Below, in pieces: positions 8,111 through 53,027 of a stretch of 53,027 bases of DNA (position 1 is its first letter; each line of letters opens with the position of its first letter). This DNA is from Bacteroidales bacterium. Its GTDB lineage: Bacteria > Bacteroidota > Bacteroidia > Bacteroidales > UBA932. Below the pieces are notes generated by a model that did not search any database, was not told where the DNA came from, and saw only the letters and a list, made by a program, of their open reading frames with translations. Both the position numbers and the translations under genes were made by a program. Where the stretch lies: contig JAAYDZ010000054.1 in assembly GCA_012728975.1 (NCBI GenBank), positions 1-53,027 of the forward strand. Reading direction: 5' to 3'.

Positions 8111-9400
8111 TCAATAGAATACGCTTATGGTGTACGGGACACCGTTAAGAACGCCAAGACGACCTGTATACTGTTGACCATATGAAGCTGCTTCAGTATC
8201 TACGGTAGTTGCACAGAAAACAGAAATATACAGTCTGCCGGCAGCAGGTTTTATTATTGTCAAGTCTTTGGTAACACCGTTGCCAACATTGACATACAAC
8301 GAGTTGTCATTGAAAGCGAATGTTTCCGGATTCGCAAATAAGTATAAATCAAATTCTTCCCAACCCTTTTGCGGTGAGATTGTAATTGTAATCTTATCGG
8401 TACCCTTCGGAATATTTACTGCAAAATGATGATACTGTCTATCACCGATTTTTGTGAATTCCGGATTGTTATCAGATGTTGAACACTTCATCTCCCGGGG
8501 TTCACCATTTTCAAGAATACCTTTTAATCTCGGACGTCCGTTTCCGTCAAGGGCGTATTTTATCATAGCAGACATTAACTCCAGTCTTTCTCCGGAAACC
8601 ACTCTTTCAGGATGAGAACCGATGAGAACTACACGTCCATCATATTCGGAGGCCTTGTAGGCCCATCCTGCAACTTCTCTGTGGATGTTTCTCTCAATAT
8701 TGAGGGTATCTCCATCGTAGCGCAAGGTAACTTCTGTGCCTTTAGGCACATTATTTTCCATCCAGGCAAAGCATCCGCCATTGTGGCGTACACTGTCAAT
8801 TACCATGTCACCGCCGAAGGAATAATATTGGAGAAGAGGGGATCCTTTCTCTACAAACAGAGATGTGAAGGACTTATTCAGAGTGGTTCCCCTCGTATAA
8901 CCAGGCCATATTCCGTAGTACTCCGGAACATCCACTATACCGCTGTCTTTAACGAAACCTTTTGAAGCTATGTATGCACCGGCACAAGTGCCAAGATAAC
9001 TGCCGCCTTCTGCAACAAATCGACGTACGTTTTCACGGCCTTTTTCTCCGAGAGAACGTCCGTGCGAAGTGGCTTTTCCGCCGTTTGTGTATATCATTCT
9101 GAATCTGGGAGCACCATCAGGATAGAGAAGGATGCCGTTTTCGTCAATTTCCGATCCGCTGAACAGTAGGGTCTGAATCAGTGTGTCCAGAGCATTTAGA
9201 TCCTCGTTTTTGGATGTATTGAATATCTCGACGGATAGATTCAAATAGTTGGCGGCAGGAAGATCGGGATACGAACTGAGTAATACTCCTCCGTCAATGA
9301 ATAAGTCTTTGTAATAACCCTTTGCGTGGTTCTGCCCAAAGGAAATGAATGGAATTGAGAGTAGAATAACTGCTAATAAACAATAATGTTGGGTTCGCAT
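8111..9400 (-). CDS. Secreted BPL_N (glutamine-amidotransferase-like) protein with C-terminal PPC domain
   Basis: The product is 429 aa. A signal peptide (LLAVILLSIPFISFGQ) sends it out of the cytoplasm. The middle matches the biotin-protein-ligase N-terminal (BPL_N) fold: GGSYLGTCAGAYIAS carries a Cys in the nucleophile elbow used by class I glutamine amidotransferases, followed by YYGIWPGYTRG and VVLIGSHPE. The last 100 residues (HHFAVNIPKG, FDLYLFANPETF, GRLYISVFCAT) look like a pre-peptidase C-terminal beta-sandwich. Such proteins are common in Bacteroidota but their reaction is not known; the domain does not imply biotin ligation. It is transcribed alone, converging on hppA, behind a possible -7 box at 9426-9433 and separated from the upstream MFS genes by a terminator. 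Confidence 0.8.
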   Translation of the reverse strand: MRTQHYCLLAVILLSIPFISFGQNHAKGYYKDLFIDGGVLLSSYPDLPAANYLNLSVEIFNTSKNEDLNALDTLIQTLLFSGSEIDENGILLYPDGAPRFRMIYTNGGKATSHGRSLGEKGRENVRRFVAEGGSYLGTCAGAYIASKGFVKDSGIVDVPEYYGIWPGYTRGTTLNKSFTSLFVEKGSPLLQYYSFGGDMVIDSVRHNGGCFAWMENNVPKGTEVTLRYDGDTLNIERNIHREVAGWAYKASEYDGRVVLIGSHPERVVSGERLELMSAMIKYALDGNGRPRLKGILENGEPREMKCSTSDNNPEFTKIGDRQYHHFAVNIPKGTDKITITISPQKGWEEFDLYLFANPETFAFNDNSLYVNVGNGVTKDLTIIKPAAGRLYISVFCATTVDTEAASYGQQYTGRLGVLNGVPYTISVFY

Positions 9401-47981: not shown

Positions 47982-48014
47982 GGGAGGGATGGGGAGGGGG
48001 AGGGGGAGGGGGAG
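47982..48014 (+). repeat. G-run tract (GGGGGA repeats), G-quadruplex candidate
   Basis: Six consecutive G-runs of 3 to 5 bases separated by single A or AT (core AGGGGG repeated) lie directly beyond the fic stop codon, 122 bases upstream of the TlpA-like ATG. The plus strand could fold into a four-layer quadruplex. On the transcribed minus strand the same tract reads as C-runs in the fic mRNA 3' end. Confidence 0.75.
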
Positions 48015-48016
48015 GT

Positions 48017-49120
48017 TTACTCTTTCAATAGGTAATTGGTGCTTCGTCCACCATCATTGGAGACGACTAGTATCCCTTTTTCTATAAGGTCAGTTATATC
48101 TCTTAGGGCTGTAGCCTGTGAATTCTTTGTCATCTTTGCCCACTTTGAAGTAGTAAGCTTGCCTTCAAAACCATCCCAAAGTCTATTTATAACTTTGACT
48201 TGCCTCTCGTTCATAGATACCTCACGATTTCTTTGCCAGAAAGAAGCCTTCTTAACTACTCTCTGCACTATCTGCTCAGAATAAAGTATTGCAGACTTCA
48301 TGGTTAGTAAAAACCACTCAAGCCATGCCGTTATGTCGGTCGAACCTGTTGTAGTCTTCTCGAGTATTTCATAATATGCCTTTTTTTCTTTTAGAATTTG
48401 AGCAGACATACTGTAGAATCTGTGCGGCATACCGTCAGCTTTTGCCAGCAACATATCTGTGATTGTCCTTGTCAGACGACCATTACCATCATCAAACGGG
48501 TGTATGGCTACGAACCACATATGTGCAATAGCGGCTTTGAGTACGGGATCAATGCTGTTACCGGCATTTACCCATGAGAGGAATTCATCCATCATAGCCG
48601 GCACATCCTCTGACCTAGGTGCTTCATAATGGATTTTTTCCTTACCCATAGCTCCTGAAACCACTTGCATCGGCTCTTTTCCTACTCTATATGCTGCAAC
48701 GGTTATAGGGTACATACCGCTGCGTCCGGTAGGGAATAGGGCTGCATGCCAATTGAATAGTCTTTCATGAGTCAATGATTTGTCACTACCCCTGACAGCA
48801 TCGAGCATTACCTGCACGATGCCTTCCGTATAGTTGTCTGTAGCTGGTAAACCCTCTACTTCTATGCCTAGCTTCCTGGCAATTGATGAGCGTACTTTGT
48901 CATAATTGAGTATTTCTCCCTCTATCTCACTTGAGCGTACCACTTCCTCGGTCATCACATCAAGCGATGTCTTATTTTGGATTTCAAAGCCTAATCCACT
49001 CATTAATCCCCCTATCCTGCCTTCGAGGTTGCGCACCTCCGAAAGAAGGTTGATCAAGCGAGAATTGTCCCATGTAAACTCTGGCCAAGTCGGGTGTTGC
49101 CATATATAAATCGGTCTCAT
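48017..49120 (-). CDS. Fic/DOC-family protein with N-terminal inhibitory motif (DUF4172-Fic-wHTH)
   Basis: The product is 367 aa. The N-terminal DUF4172 part (YIWQHPTWPEFTWD) contains the inhibitory helix motif S-x3-E-G (S63 to G68, SSEIEG), as in class II Fic enzymes. The catalytic Fic motif is HPFDDGNGR (207-215), preceded by the flap region. The last 80 residues look like a winged helix (MNERQVKVINRLWDGF, TTSKWAKMTKNSQATALRDI). Fic proteins transfer AMP, sometimes other nucleotide parts, onto Ser/Thr/Tyr hydroxyls of target proteins, and the motif keeps it silent until released. The ATG at 49120 (MRPIYIWQHP) is chosen over an upstream one because the promoter at 49139-49170 lies in between. 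Targets are unknown; a partner antitoxin gene is not needed for this class and none is seen. Confidence 0.9.
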   Translation of the reverse strand: MRPIYIWQHPTWPEFTWDNSRLINLLSEVRNLEGRIGGLMSGLGFEIQNKTSLDVMTEEVVRSSEIEGEILNYDKVRSSIARKLGIEVEGLPATDNYTEGIVQVMLDAVRGSDKSLTHERLFNWHAALFPTGRSGMYPITVAAYRVGKEPMQVVSGAMGKEKIHYEAPRSEDVPAMMDEFLSWVNAGNSIDPVLKAAIAHMWFVAIHPFDDGNGRLTRTITDMLLAKADGMPHRFYSMSAQILKEKKAYYEILEKTTTGSTDITAWLEWFLLTMKSAILYSEQIVQRVVKKASFWQRNREVSMNERQVKVINRLWDGFEGKLTTSKWAKMTKNSQATALRDITDLIEKGILVVSNDGGRSTNYLLKE

Positions 49121-49138
49121 AACTGGATTATTTTGAGA

Positions 49139-49170
49139 CAAAGATAAGTAGATGATGCGAAAAAACAAAT
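49139..49170 (-). promoter_or_regulatory. Promoter of the Fic gene (TTTG-N20-TATCTTTG)
   Basis: On the minus strand TTTG (plus 49167-49170) and TATCTTTG (plus 49139-49146) are 20 bases apart, and the predicted start is about 13 bases before the ATG at 49120. It overlaps the first codons of the remnant reading frame on the plus strand, which argues against coding there. Confidence 0.65.
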
Positions 49171-49197: not shown

Positions 49198-49219
49198 GGG
49201 GGAAAAGTGTGTCATATGA

Positions 49220-49247
49220 GGGATTTGGTCACTTCGTTCCCACATTC
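49220..49247 (+). repeat. 28-base dispersed repeat, copy a
   Basis: Begins GGGATTT followed by GGTCACTTCGTTCCCACATTC. Upstream it shares TGTCATATGAG with copy d (TGTCATATGGAG). It lies at the left boundary of the remnant gene. Confidence 0.6.
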
Positions 49248-49665
49248 ATCGAATATATTATGTATCTTGCGGGGTACATTGAACAACTGGGTACTGGCAC
49301 CGAAGATATGGTCGAAAGAATGATTAAAAATGGCCTCCCAGAACCTTTATTTGTTCAGGATCAGGACTTTAGAGCGATTATCTATCGTTATGCCCCGCAA
49401 GGTGCCGTGCAAGATACCCCCAAAGTTACCGAACAAGTTTATAGACTGATATTGACTTTGGAAGGTGAAATGACAAGAGACGAACTTATGGGCAAATTAA
49501 ATTTAAGACATAGACCAACTTTTGTTTATAATTATACAAATCCTGCATTGAGTGGCGGATGGATTGAGAGGACGGAAGCTGAAGCTAATCATCCAAGACA
49601 AAAATATCGCTTGACTACAAAAGGACTGAAGGCAAAACAGCAGTGGGAAAAGTAATATTTTAGGG

Positions 49666-49693
49666 GGGATTTCGTCGCTTCGCTCGTACATAC
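49666..49693 (+). repeat. 28-base dispersed repeat, copy b
   Basis: Begins GGGATTT followed by CGTCGCTTCGCTCGTACATAC. It lies 10 bases after the stop of the remnant gene and before the three-gene AT-rich cluster. Confidence 0.6.
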
Positions 49694-49777
49694 ACTCTCT
49701 TCCAAGTCTAATCATATCACTTGATGTCCATCGTGATTGATTATAAGTGGTATAGCAGCAGAACAAAAAATATTTCT

Positions 49778-49785
49778 TAGATTTG
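49778..49785 (+). promoter_or_regulatory. -7 box (TAGATTTG) of the AT-rich gene cluster
   Basis: TAGATTTG fits TAnnTTTG and lies 26 bases before the ATG at 49812. No -33 TTTG at proper distance is seen. Confidence 0.45.
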
Positions 49786-49811
49786 TAACATAATATTATA
49801 TATTACATAGT

Positions 49812-50738
49812 ATGAGAGAGATTTGTACATTTTCCCTTTTGACTATCACTTTATTTCTGACAGCATGTTCTCATCATTCGACTGAACTTAAAAAAGTTGT
49901 TGCGCAACGAGATTCCCTTGCAATAATTGTTTCAAGTAAGCAGCAGTTAATTCAAAGAATGCGTGATTCTATTAATATGCTTTCATTTCCTTCCGATCAA
50001 CGTCTTTTGAAAATTAAGGAGTTAATAAATAATAATTGTTTTTCAGATGCACGTTCAGAATTAATATGTTTAGTTAACTTATTCCCGAACTCGCAAGAGG
50101 CACATTTAGCTGATGAACTTGAAAAACAAATCCAAATTGAAATAGAGAAGCAAGAAGCGGAGGCATCTCGCCTTAGAGCACTAGGATTTAAAGCAATTAA
50201 AGCATCTTTAACTGCCCAAATTGATTGCAACCAAGTCTCATTTTCCGAAATTAAGGTTGCAAACACTTTTACTTTCGATAGTTATGATTATAGTTATTTT
50301 TATATTACAGCAGATCGTGGAAGTAAATTTGTTTCTGTGGCGATGAAGGTAACATCATCTTCCAAAGACCCTAAGCTTCCTCAACTTGCTGTTTATTCAA
50401 TCAATGGAGACACGATGCATAAGGAAGGAACATTCATTACAAAGTTCCGTAGATGGAAAGATTATGGCTATTACCTAGGTAATTATCATGACAATAGCAA
50501 TGATTTTGCGAAAACAAGTACAATTAATTTTAAATTAGGCTGCGAGTTGTCAGAAGAAATACTTAAACAACCATATGCAATTGTTCTAAAGAAAGAGAAT
50601 GCTTTAATTAGGCGCGAGGATAGGTTTGAAAATCCACCTGTATCATATGTGGGTTCTGTTGATTATGCATATTCTTTGTCAGTAGATGATTTTGGTCAAT
50701 CGGGAAGATATCAACTTATAAAATTAAGCAATCTATAA
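49812..50738 (+). CDS. Hypothetical lipoprotein with coiled coil, first gene of AT-rich cluster
   Basis: The product is 308 aa and I do not recognise its family. The signal peptide has a good lipobox (FLTAC, Cys19). Residues about 25-60 (VVAQRDSLAIIVSSKQQLI) and 100-125 (EKQIQIEIEKQEAEASRLRAL) look like coiled coil or helical repeats; the C-terminal 170 residues are beta-rich with aromatic pairs (YDYSYFYITADRGSKF, WKDYGYYLGNYHDN). The base composition is clearly richer in A+T than the housekeeping genes to the left. It begins 14 bases before the end of the -7/leader region, with gene two following after 13 bases; the three genes probably form one transcript. Likely location is the periplasmic face of a membrane or the surface; the function is unknown. 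Confidence 0.8.
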   Translation: MREICTFSLLTITLFLTACSHHSTELKKVVAQRDSLAIIVSSKQQLIQRMRDSINMLSFPSDQRLLKIKELINNNCFSDARSELICLVNLFPNSQEAHLADELEKQIQIEIEKQEAEASRLRALGFKAIKASLTAQIDCNQVSFSEIKVANTFTFDSYDYSYFYITADRGSKFVSVAMKVTSSSKDPKLPQLAVYSINGDTMHKEGTFITKFRRWKDYGYYLGNYHDNSNDFAKTSTINFKLGCELSEEILKQPYAIVLKKENALIRREDRFENPPVSYVGSVDYAYSLSVDDFGQSGRYQLIKLSNL

Positions 50739-50751
50739 ACAGTCCAATAAA

Positions 50752-51105
50752 ATGAAAAAGTCACTTATTGTCATTTTATCCATAGCTGTATCTATTATTA
50801 TGTCCTCATGCTCAACGCATGCTGATTTATATAGACATACGGATTATTTTGTTGAACAACTTTCAACTGTCTACGTAAGTTATGGCCTAGTAGGCTTGAA
50901 GTACAAAAGATTTACCGATGATGGTAAATATGGGATTTTCCCAACAGGACGTCTTATTAATGTTCGAATAGAGAGTCCTTATGCTACAACCAAGGATTAT
51001 GAGAATCTTCGTAAAGATTTAGAACGGTACTACAGGGGCAATCCGAACGTTAACAAAGTTTACATTTGCCAGGGTGGTACAATAATGATTGATTGTAGAA
51101 ATTAA
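50752..51105 (+). CDS. Small hypothetical lipoprotein, second gene of AT-rich cluster
   Basis: The product is 117 aa, family not recognised. It has a lipoprotein signal peptide (SIIMSSC, Cys20), then a compact domain with VYVSYGLVGLKYKRFTDDG, TKDYENLRKDLERYY and the C-terminal VYICQGGTIMIDCRN. Two Cys in the last 14 residues could form a disulfide after export. The gene starts 13 bases after the first gene of the cluster and ends ahead of the third; the start is the ATG giving MKKSLIVILSIAV. Nothing in it suggests an enzyme. Confidence 0.78.
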   Translation: MKKSLIVILSIAVSIIMSSCSTHADLYRHTDYFVEQLSTVYVSYGLVGLKYKRFTDDGKYGIFPTGRLINVRIESPYATTKDYENLRKDLERYYRGNPNVNKVYICQGGTIMIDCRN

Positions 51106-51172
51106 ACCTATTGCTTATTTTGAAAACCCCTTATATAGTCTTAATGAATTGATAATCACAATAATAACTGCT

Positions 51173-52660
51173 ATGGTTGATAGAATCTTTAAAATAATCC
51201 TTATAATCTCTGCGCTCCTTTTTTTAGAGTTTGGCTATTTTGCTTATGGCCAAGATTCATTTAGTGTCGTTGATTCATTAGTTGGTAAGAGAGTCGTTTT
51301 ATACGATGCTTCAGGCCTTCTTAATGAGTATGGACCTTATATGTATATGGAGCAAAAGGGCAAGTTAAAAGTTGTGAAAGATGTATCACAATACAATCAG
51401 GCTTTTGACAATGGACGCGTGTTAGAAGTTCAGTCGCAAGAAATAGTAAAGAAAAAGAAATATTTGTTGCTAACAAGTGATGGTATAAGTTATTATATCT
51501 TGATTGATGGTAAGAAAAACTATCTTAATAATGTACGTTCATATTCGTTCTGGGAGGATAAGTTATCATATTTTCAGGATAATTTTCAGCTATTTCTTAT
51601 TCCCGGAGCGGACGCAGAAGATCATCCTAGCAATCATTATAAGTTGATTTATTGGTCAGGGTTTAAAATGCCAGAATCATTTACAACTGATGTTCAATTT
51701 TTTTATTATGAGTCGGACATTTTGGGGAGTGATGAGGCAAATGAGAAAGGCGCAGAACGCAGTTTGCCATCTGAGGCAATTCGTTTAAACGCATCAAAAT
51801 ATATTAGTAAAGAAACATACAATTCTCTTGTTACTGAATATTTGGAAAGAAAAGAAAATGAGAGGTTGGACTCCTTAGCTGATTTGCGACCTATTATTGC
51901 AAAGGTTCTTCATACATATGATGCGAAAAATACTTACAAAAAAGTAGATATTACATATGATGATGGAGATGATAATGAGATTCGTCTGTATTTATGTAAT
52001 ACTACTGTAAAATACGGCAAGACAAGTTATACTTTTTCGGGATACTCATTGGGCAATGACTTGACTTTTAATGATTCCGATTTGAAGTTTATCAATCCGG
52101 CTGAGTCAGATTATCTTAAACGTAGAGGCTCAAATGGAATATCCGTAAGGAAAAAAATTGCCAAAGATTCTGATCTTGAATATAGTTCTGCCAAGTTAGA
52201 TAGTCTTCAAGCTGAATTGGATAAACTGTATCAAAAAGTACAGAAGATGTATTCATTTTATGATAAGAAGAAAATATTCATTACTGGACATGATTATGTG
52301 TTTGGGGATTACGGTCAGTTTGGGATGAGTTTTGAGTTATATAATTGCTATTCTCAACCAATAAAGTATGTTGAAATCAAAATGGCTCCTTATAATGCTG
52401 TCGATGATGTTCAAACTGATGATATGGGAAGAGGTATCAGAGAAGTTAGGTGTATTGGGCCTATAGAACCTAAGGAGAGTGCAACTTATAAATTTGAAAA
52501 GCTATGGTGGGATGAGCGCGATATAATAAGAAGAGTCGATATAATTAGGGTTAAACTGATTTTTAAAGATAATTCATCAATTATCTTTCCTTCAAAATCT
52601 AAAGTTGATGCTCACCGTAGTTCTAATTATTCTTTATTAGACATGGGTATAACTGAGTAA
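51173..52660 (+). CDS. Hypothetical exported protein, third gene of AT-rich cluster
   Basis: The product is about 495 aa from the ATG at 51173. The frame is open 28 codons further up, overlapping the previous gene, but MVDRIFKIILIISALLFLEF gives the natural signal peptide, ending near GYFAYGQ. No catalytic motif is visible. The middle has charged helices (LVTEYLERKENERLDSL, SAKLDSLQAELDKLYQKVQKMY); the C-terminal 110 residues (FELYNCYSQPIKYVEIKMAPYN, RCIGPIEPKESATYKFEKLWW, IRVKLIFKDNS) resemble the FxLYD-like beta-sandwiches that end many exported Bacteroidota proteins. It has no lipobox. A+T richness is as in the two preceding genes. Function unknown; family resemblance of the C-terminus is a by-eye judgement. 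Confidence 0.78.
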   Translation: MVDRIFKIILIISALLFLEFGYFAYGQDSFSVVDSLVGKRVVLYDASGLLNEYGPYMYMEQKGKLKVVKDVSQYNQAFDNGRVLEVQSQEIVKKKKYLLLTSDGISYYILIDGKKNYLNNVRSYSFWEDKLSYFQDNFQLFLIPGADAEDHPSNHYKLIYWSGFKMPESFTTDVQFFYYESDILGSDEANEKGAERSLPSEAIRLNASKYISKETYNSLVTEYLERKENERLDSLADLRPIIAKVLHTYDAKNTYKKVDITYDDGDDNEIRLYLCNTTVKYGKTSYTFSGYSLGNDLTFNDSDLKFINPAESDYLKRRGSNGISVRKKIAKDSDLEYSSAKLDSLQAELDKLYQKVQKMYSFYDKKKIFITGHDYVFGDYGQFGMSFELYNCYSQPIKYVEIKMAPYNAVDDVQTDDMGRGIREVRCIGPIEPKESATYKFEKLWWDERDIIRRVDIIRVKLIFKDNSSIIFPSKSKVDAHRSSNYSLLDMGITE

Positions 52661-52693
52661 TACAAAAATAATTGAATCTTAACTTTAGTGAAT

Positions 52694-52719
52694 AAGTCTA
52701 AAGGCCAGAAGCTGCGCTA
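52694..52719 (+). repeat. 26-base direct repeat, copy 1
   Basis: Pattern aagtcNaaaggccNgaagctgcgctN, identical to copy 2 at 23 of 26 positions. Confidence 0.65.
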
Positions 52720-52741
52720 GAATGTTCCTCTCTCACTCCTC

Positions 52742-52769
52742 GGGATTTGCTCGTTTCACTCGCACATTC
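52742..52769 (+). repeat. 28-base dispersed repeat, copy c
   Basis: Begins GGGATTT followed by GCTCGTTTCACTCGCACATTC. It lies about 80 bases after the AT-rich cluster. Confidence 0.6.
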
Positions 52770-52771
52770 CT

Positions 52772-52788
52772 CCCCGCCTGCGGCGGGG
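52772..52788. repeat. GC-rich hairpin
   Basis: ccccgcc and ggcgggg pair perfectly around a TGC loop. It has no T-run, lies between repeat copies c and d, and its role is unknown. Confidence 0.6.
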
Positions 52789-52824
52789 CGATGCTAGGTG
52801 CGAAATAAAAAAATGTCATATGGA

Positions 52825-52852
52825 GGGATTTGCTCACTGCGTTCGCATTTCC
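52825..52852 (+). repeat. 28-base dispersed repeat, copy d
   Basis: Begins GGGATTT followed by GCTCACTGCGTTCGCATTTCC, preceded by TGTCATATGGAG as in copy a. Confidence 0.6.
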
Positions 52853-52879
52853 CTTTCCACTCGCCGTGGGGGCCCTTGC

Positions 52880-52905
52880 AAGTCGAAAGGCCTGAAGCTG
52901 CGCTT
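52880..52905 (+). repeat. 26-base direct repeat, copy 2
   Basis: Second copy of the element at 52694, differing at three positions; spacing between the copies is 186 bases. Confidence 0.65.
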
Positions 52906-52922
52906 CATTTTTTTATACAACA

Positions 52923-52952
52923 AATCCCCTTTTGAGCAAGCTCAAGGGGATT
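52923..52952 (-). terminator. Second hairpin downstream of the tRNA
   Basis: aatccccttttgagc and gctcaaggggatt pair with a two-base bulge around AA. On the minus strand it is followed by TTTGTTGT. It backs up the terminator next to the tRNA. Confidence 0.6.
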
Positions 52953-52960
52953 CATTATAT

Positions 52961-52988
52961 AAAAAACCGAATGACTGACGTCATTCGG
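52961..52988 (-). terminator. Intrinsic terminator of the minus-strand tRNA
   Basis: On the minus strand ccgaatgac, loop GTCA, gtcattcgg is followed by TTTTTT (plus 52961-52966). It lies 12 bases beyond the tRNA 3' end. Confidence 0.85.
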
Positions 52989-53000
52989 CCTTTCGCTTTG

Positions 53001-53027
53001 CGGAGAGAGAGGGATTCGAACCCTCGA
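53001..53027 (-). tRNA. 3' end of a tRNA, probably tRNA-Ser (cut by window edge)
   Basis: Read on the minus strand the edge holds T-arm GAGGGTTCGAATCCCTC, acceptor strand TCTCTCC and discriminator G, with no encoded CCA. Acceptor sequence and the G discriminator suit tRNA-Ser, but the anticodon lies outside the window. Confidence 0.75.

Follow-up and report, generated by a model that had tools for sequence, protein, structure and literature searches.

What are the short repeats that stand at the edges of accessory genes, and how do they come to be there? The question is raised by a 53,027-nucleotide contig of a Bacteroidales bacterium (JAAYDZ010000054.1; the whole of this stretch is called the window below), near one end of which four copies of a 28-base repeat lie around a gene remnant and an AT-rich cluster of three genes. 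An original prediction made from the sequence took these copies to be module boundaries, formed either by an intergenic mobile repeat or by recombination sites used to swap cassettes. The element missing from that prediction is a tRNA-Ser gene at position 53000, inside which the window ends. We find that R1 to R4, as the four copies are called below, belong in decayed form to a wider hairpin family, and that this family is, with good support, tied in Bacteroidales to tRNA-Ser 3’ ends, those of all four isoacceptors included.

Four repeat copies at a single locus

The copies are intergenic and lie at the edges of accessory genes, as had been described, flanking the gene remnant (49.2–49.7 kb) and the three-gene cluster:

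49220 to 49247, forward strand: R1, in the left part of the hotspot, found with the 28-base pattern
49666 to 49693, forward strand: R2, immediately 3’ of the Fic-like_C gene remnant and followed by a decayed tRNA-end-like stretch, ACTCTCTTCC
52742 to 52770, forward strand: R3, a hairpin beside the tRNA-Ser flank, scoring 46.2 bits with the hairpin model and included in alignment A1
52825 to 52853, forward strand: R4, the second hairpin of the terminal unit, matched by both the pattern and the hairpin model

All four begin with GGGATTT and align without gaps over 28 bases, and they are a real feature of this DNA: a search for their 20-base core with up to three mismatches returns exactly four matches in the window against 0.23 expected, and none of 100 shuffles reaches four, a significance that is somewhat overstated because the search patterns were written from the copies themselves. 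The heptamer GGGATTT by itself is unremarkable (16 matches in the window against 9.9 expected, with 4 of 100 shuffles reaching 16). The source genome (G000) is a metagenome-assembled genome of 1.83 Mb in 76 contigs, 90.55% complete, in which the window is contig C47. Throughout this genome the 28-base pattern with up to three mismatches finds R1 to R4 only, without random scatter into core genes, and with four copies at one locus a genome-wide mobile repeat is not supported. A looser 20-mer with two mismatches gives 78 genome-wide matches (46 forward, 32 reverse) against 44 (20 + 24) for the reversed control, R1 to R4 being the only matches with no mismatch.

A covarying hairpin at the 3’ ends of tRNA-Ser genes

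Matches with at most one mismatch occur in five of 61 genomes, i.e., the source genome and 60 relatives. Positions 49215–49243 (R1) are identical at 29 of 29 bases to a copy in the relative G019, and the counterparts of R2 are, in G016, a hairpin that follows the same Fic-like_C gene and, in G019, a GGGATTT sequence of greater divergence. Copies in the relatives mostly terminate in CATCC(C), and these ends reveal an imperfect palindrome, GGGAT-T-TSS-TC-RY-TNC-RY-TC-SSA-C-ATCCC, that is, a 29-base imperfect hairpin with compensatory changes. Among 14 aligned copies (12 distinct), standard pairs fill 91.7% of pair cells against 81.6±2.1 in shuffles, both bases have changed in 15 cells (6.7±1.8 in shuffles), and covariation scores 0.368, compared with 0.201 for shuffled and at most 0.082 for slid alignments. 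A second set comprises 56 non-redundant hairpins found with an exact pattern that left S and R/Y free on both sides; such a set favors consensus forms, and its pairing counts, like the placement and box counts made below on exact hairpins, describe those forms and not the decayed ones. Within it the two S positions are paired in 55 of 56 hairpins, where independence would give 52%, and the RY positions are paired in 54 of 56, where it would give 64%; among the 14 distinct sequences the corresponding figures are 93% against 36% and 93% against 52%.

Within the genus, a 249-base unit taken from G019 matches 16 of 40 genomes and the hairpin model matches at least 15 of 40, a lower bound since up to 150 candidates per genome were scored. 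Thirteen of the 15 stretches L073 to L087 contain a tRNA-Ser gene, with the anticodons GGA, TGA, GCT and CGA all represented. In public genomes, a first pattern drawn too near the window’s decayed copies gave no match, and the relatives’ consensus pattern gave 50 stretches, 47 of them labelled Bacteroidales, Bacteroidia or Bacteroidota; the remaining three are labelled Thermoclostridium (the same array as in G019), Acholeplasmataceae and Rhodothermales. Viral contigs gave no exact hairpin match, and a viral origin was rejected. Of 61 exact hairpins, 42 lie less than 350 nt from a tRNA gene (38 Ser, 2 Gln and 2 Arg), and every one of these 42 is on the 3’ side of the tRNA and on the opposite strand, convergent with it. 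The other 19 consist of nine for which the contig or locus runs out on the side expected to carry the tRNA, five that lie farther off and five without a tRNA in the piece.

The window shows the parts of a typical unit, which runs from an inverted copy of the tRNA 3’ end through the 29-base covarying hairpin, a GC-rich hairpin and a palindromic terminator to the tRNA-Ser gene on the other strand:

52724 to 52741, forward strand: box preceding R3, an inverted and partly decayed copy of the tRNA-Ser(GGA) 3’ end (best inverted 12-mer 10/12, 261 nt from the tRNA)
52772 to 52788, forward strand: GC-rich hairpin CCCCGCC-TGC-GGCGGGG, which follows the repeat hairpin in the unit and is the same in L041, L042, L043 and L073
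52869 to 52881, forward strand: GGGGCCCTTGCAA, a signature of the genus’s tRNA-Ser 3’ flank, with 24 matches in 19 of 40 genomes
52881 to 52999, no strand assigned: palindromic, branched, terminator-like structure downstream of tRNA-Ser (minimum free energy −31.7 kcal/mol as single-stranded DNA, z −8.3)
53000 to 53027, reverse strand: 3’ end of tRNA-Ser(GGA), truncated at the contig end and identical at 28 of 28 bases to L041, L042 and L043

The box preceding R3 is better preserved in relatives. Among the 24 genus matches to GGGGCCCTTGCAA, 17 adjoin a tRNA-Ser gene, two lie in the G019 array, one lies in a tRNA-Ser flank that an integrase element has displaced (L086) and four lie elsewhere. 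At some insertion hotspots the unit has grown into a small array. As a separate observation, the RNA family RF04351 (Plastid-psbl-rps4 3’UTR) gives a sub-cut-off match antisense to tRNA-Ser at 53001–53027 (forward strand) of the window and at most tRNA-Ser loci scanned; it may simply be antisense tRNA-Ser.

The inverted tRNA-end box

The stretch preceding GGGAT often copies the T-stem and the acceptor 3’ strand of the local tRNA, in sense orientation and on the strand opposite to the tRNA. At GGA loci it can read CCCTCTCTCTCC or, in G015, CCCTTTCTCTC; CGA loci have CCCTCACTCACC, L102 has CCCGTTCTTTCC, L124 has CCCTCCGCCTCC, and a tRNA-Gln locus has ATCTCAAC. The boxes at the tRNA-Gln locus L125 match the local tRNA at 10/12 and 8/12. 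Summed over 42 hairpins (19 of the 61 being excluded for contig ends, arrays or lack of a tRNA), the match of the box to the local tRNA is 356, compared with 295.7±6.0 when tRNAs are permuted among loci, and no permutation in 2000 is as high; the 42 loci are not fully independent, L091 and L110 being the same array and L095 and L104 sharing the same box.

Inverted copies also appear when loci are found by tRNA pattern instead of by hairpin. Of 57 such tRNA-Ser flanks (the unfiltered rows minus two that are themselves copies), 15 have an inverted copy matching at 11/12 or better no more than 300 nt away and one (L080) has a direct copy; shuffled flanks hold about 0.03 such copies in all. A crude filter keeps 45 of 59 rows, 13 of them with an inverted copy, L138 being counted twice. 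In a wider set, enriched for hairpin loci, inverted copies are present in 23 of 67 distinct tRNA-Ser flanks and direct ones in 4 of 67, and inverted copies were found in none of 28 non-Ser tRNA flanks and nowhere upstream of tRNA-Ser. At L138 a perfect inverted copy lies immediately across the terminator.

Two further observations concern these copies and their tRNA genes. A GC-rich repeat, CCCCTCTCCCGAGGAGAGGGGTTTGGGG, stands just ahead of the longer or terminator-adjacent inverted copies of the tRNA-Ser 3’ end in L138, L139, L178, L185 and L192. Separately, tRNA-Ser(TGA) is inverted relative to ileS-dksA-lspA in L199 and L200; elsewhere, in fetched loci with both genes, it runs in the same direction as lspA. 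Inversion of the tRNA gene, seen relative to lspA in G036 and G033, was tried as the source of the box and rejected, because a unit that was already present would give the same outcome.

Organization of the insertion hotspot

The region from the thioredoxin gene (about 48.0 kb) to tRNA-Ser(GGA), 48.0–53.0 kb, is a well-supported insertion hotspot, and one lies at the same position, the tRNA-Ser 3’ end, in L041, L042, L043 and L074. It holds the following modules in the window:

48017 to 49168, reverse strand: Fic/DUF4172 gene (SoFic-like by domain matches), the accessory module at the left of the hotspot
49260 to 49655, forward strand: HATPase_c_4/Fic-like_C gene remnant whose 5’ part is lost at R1; a longer, 319-aa copy is in G019
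49704 to 49711, forward strand: AAGTCTAA, left 8-base direct repeat of the three-gene cluster, found by octamer comparison
49812 to 52660, forward strand: AT-rich three-gene cluster inside a repeat unit (open reading frames of 308, 117 and 523 aa)
52694 to 52701, forward strand: AAGTCTAA, right 8-base direct repeat of the cluster; its counterpart in G016 is AAGTCGAA (7/8)

Colinearity of the left flank extends to 47994–48004 with G016, G012 and G062 and to 46894 with G019. Between this flank and the tRNA-proximal units, content differs between the window and these four sister species, and related species do differ between adjacent copies, the check that had been proposed for strains. The modules of the window hotspot lie inside, and differ between, repeat units. 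The Fic-like_C remnant shares 88% identity with G019, starting at 49260, and 86% with G016, starting at 49302. Directly to the right of R1 stands TCGAATATATTAT, a sequence found likewise after the hairpin at the left border of G016 and of G012; from this shared sequence, R1 is probably the former left border of the hotspot, displaced by the Fic module. The left borders of G016 and G012 show a hairpin-like GGGATT sequence only, and no direct repeat of the tRNA end was recognised in the window.

The sister islands carry different cargo. That of G019 holds an AbiEii-like gene (19.6 bits, under the Pfam cut-off of 22.5), a phosphoesterase, DNA methyltransferases, Vsr and the 319-aa HATPase_c_4/Fic-like_C gene; that of G016 holds relatives of the first part of the G019 island and a Fic-like_C fragment; and that of G012 holds a gene pair that is AbiE-like by eye only. 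Of ten island proteins submitted to PADLOC, five were named, including three of restriction-modification or Fic-like type; the AbiE-like pair gave no match. In the tRNA-Ser(TGA) hotspot of L073, a restriction-modification gene of MmeI type, a Bro-N/DinD-like gene and an 806-aa open reading frame with a weak methyltransferase match have repeat units between them.

The three-gene cluster lies within one repeat unit and is bounded by the 8-base repeats, not by the 28-base ones. In G016 the hairpin and what follows it, through TTGCAAGTCGAAAGGCC, are uninterrupted after the Fic-like_C gene, and the window equivalent of this stretch is split by about 3 kb, containing the three genes, between the two copies of AAGTCTAA, an octamer absent elsewhere in the window on both strands. 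The window also lacks a short GC-rich segment that G016 has on the left side of the repeat. The view of the 28-base repeats as module boundaries thus stands insofar as they mark module edges and falls for the direct flanks of the cluster, which are the 8-base repeat inside the unit. The cluster’s proteins have no Pfam match, and relatives of the 523-aa protein turned up in two genomes among 392 others of the order, one of the two being weak (8.2e-6).

Origin of the repeat unit

We give an even chance to the reading that the repeats are tRNA-Ser-linked units in which fold-back template switching makes the inverted copies and the palindromes favor turnover of accessory genes, the repeats being scars or fragile points and not recombination sites. 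A replicating strand would fold at the very stable terminator palindrome near tRNA-Ser and briefly copy the tRNA end backwards, giving the inverted box; the same switching could also produce the compensatory changes in the hairpin, and the resulting palindromes, beside a tRNA gene targeted by integrases, may favor the gain and loss of accessory genes. The loci do contain reverse-complement copies of nearby DNA at a palindrome, and PMC8794818 describes template switching as a single event that can yield both a local reverse-complement copy and compensatory changes in a stem. Fold-back template switching is the most likely source of the inverted copy, with att-site (attachment-site) scarring second, because it is a known process that fits the orientation, shortness, local identity and decay of the boxes. 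The repeats do mark module edges, and on this reading they do so as scars left at a tRNA-Ser hotspot, not as genome-wide mobile repeats.

Several results weigh against this reading. The box is far from universal, reaching at least 10/12 in 18 of 42 hairpins; in 11 of 42 the 12-mer of another locus fits better, most clearly in L111 (11/12 against 8/12); at the tRNA-Arg loci the boxes score 3/12 and 6/12, neither matching; and in L114, L123 and L137 a tRNA-end copy precedes the hairpin in direct, att-like orientation (12/12). Hairpin-like sequence is present in 22 of the 45 filtered tRNA-Ser flanks, leaving about half without it, and integrase elements do occur at tRNA-Ser in this genus (L086, L157, L158). 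R1 to R4 fold as single strands no better than shuffles (z −0.3, 1.2, 0.0 and −0.9), two relatives’ copies giving z −1.9 and −2.4, and two of the five covariation measures are no higher than in shuffles (4 pairs changed on both sides against 2.9; 9 pair types against 9.2). For the 8-base repeats, two 30-nt stretches drawn at random from the region had an octamer in common in 261 of 20,000 draws, about a 1.3% chance. Finally, 20 of the 56 hairpins share one 29-mer at differing isoacceptor loci and in differing species; such near-identity indicates dispersal, for which template switching alone is insufficient, and some further route of dispersal, or att-site scarring, would be needed besides. 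Spread of one hairpin variant across the isoacceptor loci within a genome, plausible by eye, was tried as such a route and rejected: within-genome homogenisation was not found among seven pairs (0.722 against 0.758 permuted, with 1459 of 2000 permutations as high).

A clearly less probable, though serious, possibility is that the units are att scars, left by tyrosine-recombinase elements specific for tRNA-Ser, or by their non-autonomous relatives, that integrate at the T-arm and acceptor end; the hairpin would be an element end mimicking the T-stem (GGGAT..ATCCC) and the boxes att cores from serial integration and decay. The hairpin ends match the tRNA T-stem, the islands hold defence-type genes, and the direct boxes in L114, L123 and L137 are att-like. 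Integrase genes adjoin tRNA-Ser in G061 and G003, and one adjoins a truncated tRNA-Ser 3’ end in G009. In L086 the order is hairpin, GC-hairpin, terminator and tRNA end GCGGAGAGTGAGGGATT, followed by sequence with an integrase gene and, at the far border, a direct copy of the tRNA 3’ end; L157 has a 433-aa integrase open reading frame and a direct copy at 8621, its far border, with inverted-box units beyond; and L158 has a 412-aa integrase beside tRNA-Ser. The matching boxes, however, are mostly inverted (the 15 of 57 against one of 57 direct within 300 nt given above), an orientation that normal integration does not give, and many units have no island. The window contig, moreover, lacks an integrase: in this 90.55% complete assembly the tyrosine-recombinase family (PF00589) has two matches, on contigs C67 and C16, and none on the window contig, and the linked recombinase that had been anticipated was thus not found. 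The island of L157, at tRNA-Ser(CGA) of G003, also contains, near old hairpin units, a CRISPR-like repeat array and a 1218-aa open reading frame, putatively Cas9-like.

It is unlikely that the units are a family of miniature elements that home to tRNA-Ser 3’ ends, gain an inverted copy of the target end beside a hairpin of conserved structure at each insertion and seed defence-gene hotspots; were it so, each copy would record the identity of its target.

More doubtful is a selected function of the structure in the tRNA-Ser 3’ flank, for instance as a terminator, an antisense barrier or a small RNA. The compensatory changes, the fixed place and strand relative to tRNA-Ser and the very stable terminator-like structure (z −8.3) would suit it, but many tRNA-Ser flanks of the same genus have no hairpin and several boxes are decayed relative to the tRNA. 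A weak match over the whole length of Clostridiales-1 RNA (RF01699) lies directly downstream of tRNA-Ser at 52814–52976 (reverse strand) of the window and shares with that RNA a GCUUGC-centred hairpin and a GGAUUGC..GCAAUCC hairpin; this single match, at 35.4 bits under a cut-off of 48, was rejected, none being found in 26 related loci (L073 12000–12600 and 25 others).

That the 28-base repeats are recombination sites for cassette swapping is improbable. Neighboring copies do bracket modules, and species differ between them, but the three-gene module is bounded by 8-base direct repeats inside the unit, the 5’ breakpoints of the shared Fic-like_C gene differ between the window and G016, with only that of the window at a repeat, and no linked recombinase was found on the window contig.

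The linked RAYT (REP-associated tyrosine transposase, where REP denotes repetitive extragenic palindrome) that had also been anticipated fared no better. The family Y1_Tnp has matches in 6 of 13 genomes, and two such matches, both under the family cut-off, are separated from a tRNA-Ser array by about 0.4 and 1 kb; it has none in the other seven, which include the 90.55% complete G000 and all of which have hairpin or unit matches. A REP-like element mobilised by a RAYT/Y1 transposase, or a single-strand element that carries the box as its target guide, is very improbable, for although a small palindrome preceded by a target-matching box is the order of IS200/IS605 ends, and Y1_Tnp genes occur in some of these genomes, G000 and six other copy-bearing genomes have no Y1_Tnp match, the two nearby Y1 genes carry different flanking repeats of their own, and the aligned copies have no GTAG or CGTC tag at their ends, CGTC being found only inside some hairpins. 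An IS110-type transposase was likewise rejected, with no match in G000 and matches in 2 of 13 genomes, none on an array contig. The Y1_Tnp-like genes near tRNA-Ser arrays in L079 (about 6.3–8 kb) and L083 (7300–8600), again under the family cut-off, have inverted-repeat flanks of roughly 150 bases, unrelated to the 28-base repeat, which resemble those of the terminal-inverted-repeat-flanked tyrosine transposases (TIRYT) described in a section of PMC3733652.

Comparison with known systems

Genomic islands, for which tRNA genes are well-known landing sites, and integrative elements at tRNA ends likewise lie at the tRNA 3’ end, carry variable accessory and defence-type genes and have copies of the tRNA 3’ end, and in this genus too integrase genes stand beside tRNA-Ser ends (L086, L157, L158). 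Unlike in those islands, the matching copies of the window’s family are short, mostly inverted and local (no more than 300 nt away), and they are attached to the covarying hairpin; the window contig is without an integrase match. Integron cassettes are likewise genes between imperfect palindromic sites beside one fixed end. The core boxes of integron attC sites are RYYYAAC/GTTRRRY; by inspection the aligned hairpins have no such boxes, and the window contig has no recombinase match.

The REP, RAYT and TIRYT systems, as portrayed in a part of PMC3733652, also involve arrayed imperfect palindromes of 20–40 bases in intergenic DNA, but the window repeats are four copies at one locus, tied to tRNA-Ser, in a genome without a Y1 match; for this genome the RAYT/REP system was rejected on the absence of a Y1_Tnp match and the confinement of the copies to one locus. 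Quasipalindrome or template-switch mutations give the same reverse-complement local copies and compensatory stem changes; the relevant part of PMC8794818 treats RNA genes generally, in contrast to the recurrent, array-forming process at tRNA 3’ flanks considered here. Among the top-ranked results of a literature search, no description was found of a recurrent local inverted copy of the tRNA 3’ end joined to a covarying hairpin at tRNA-Ser loci with all four isoacceptors across many Bacteroidales.

Implications

The unit provides a simple sequence signature for tRNA-Ser hotspots in these bacteria, at which restriction-modification genes and others of defence type occur in several relatives. It also offers a test case for the repeated origin of inverted copies of the end of an essential gene.

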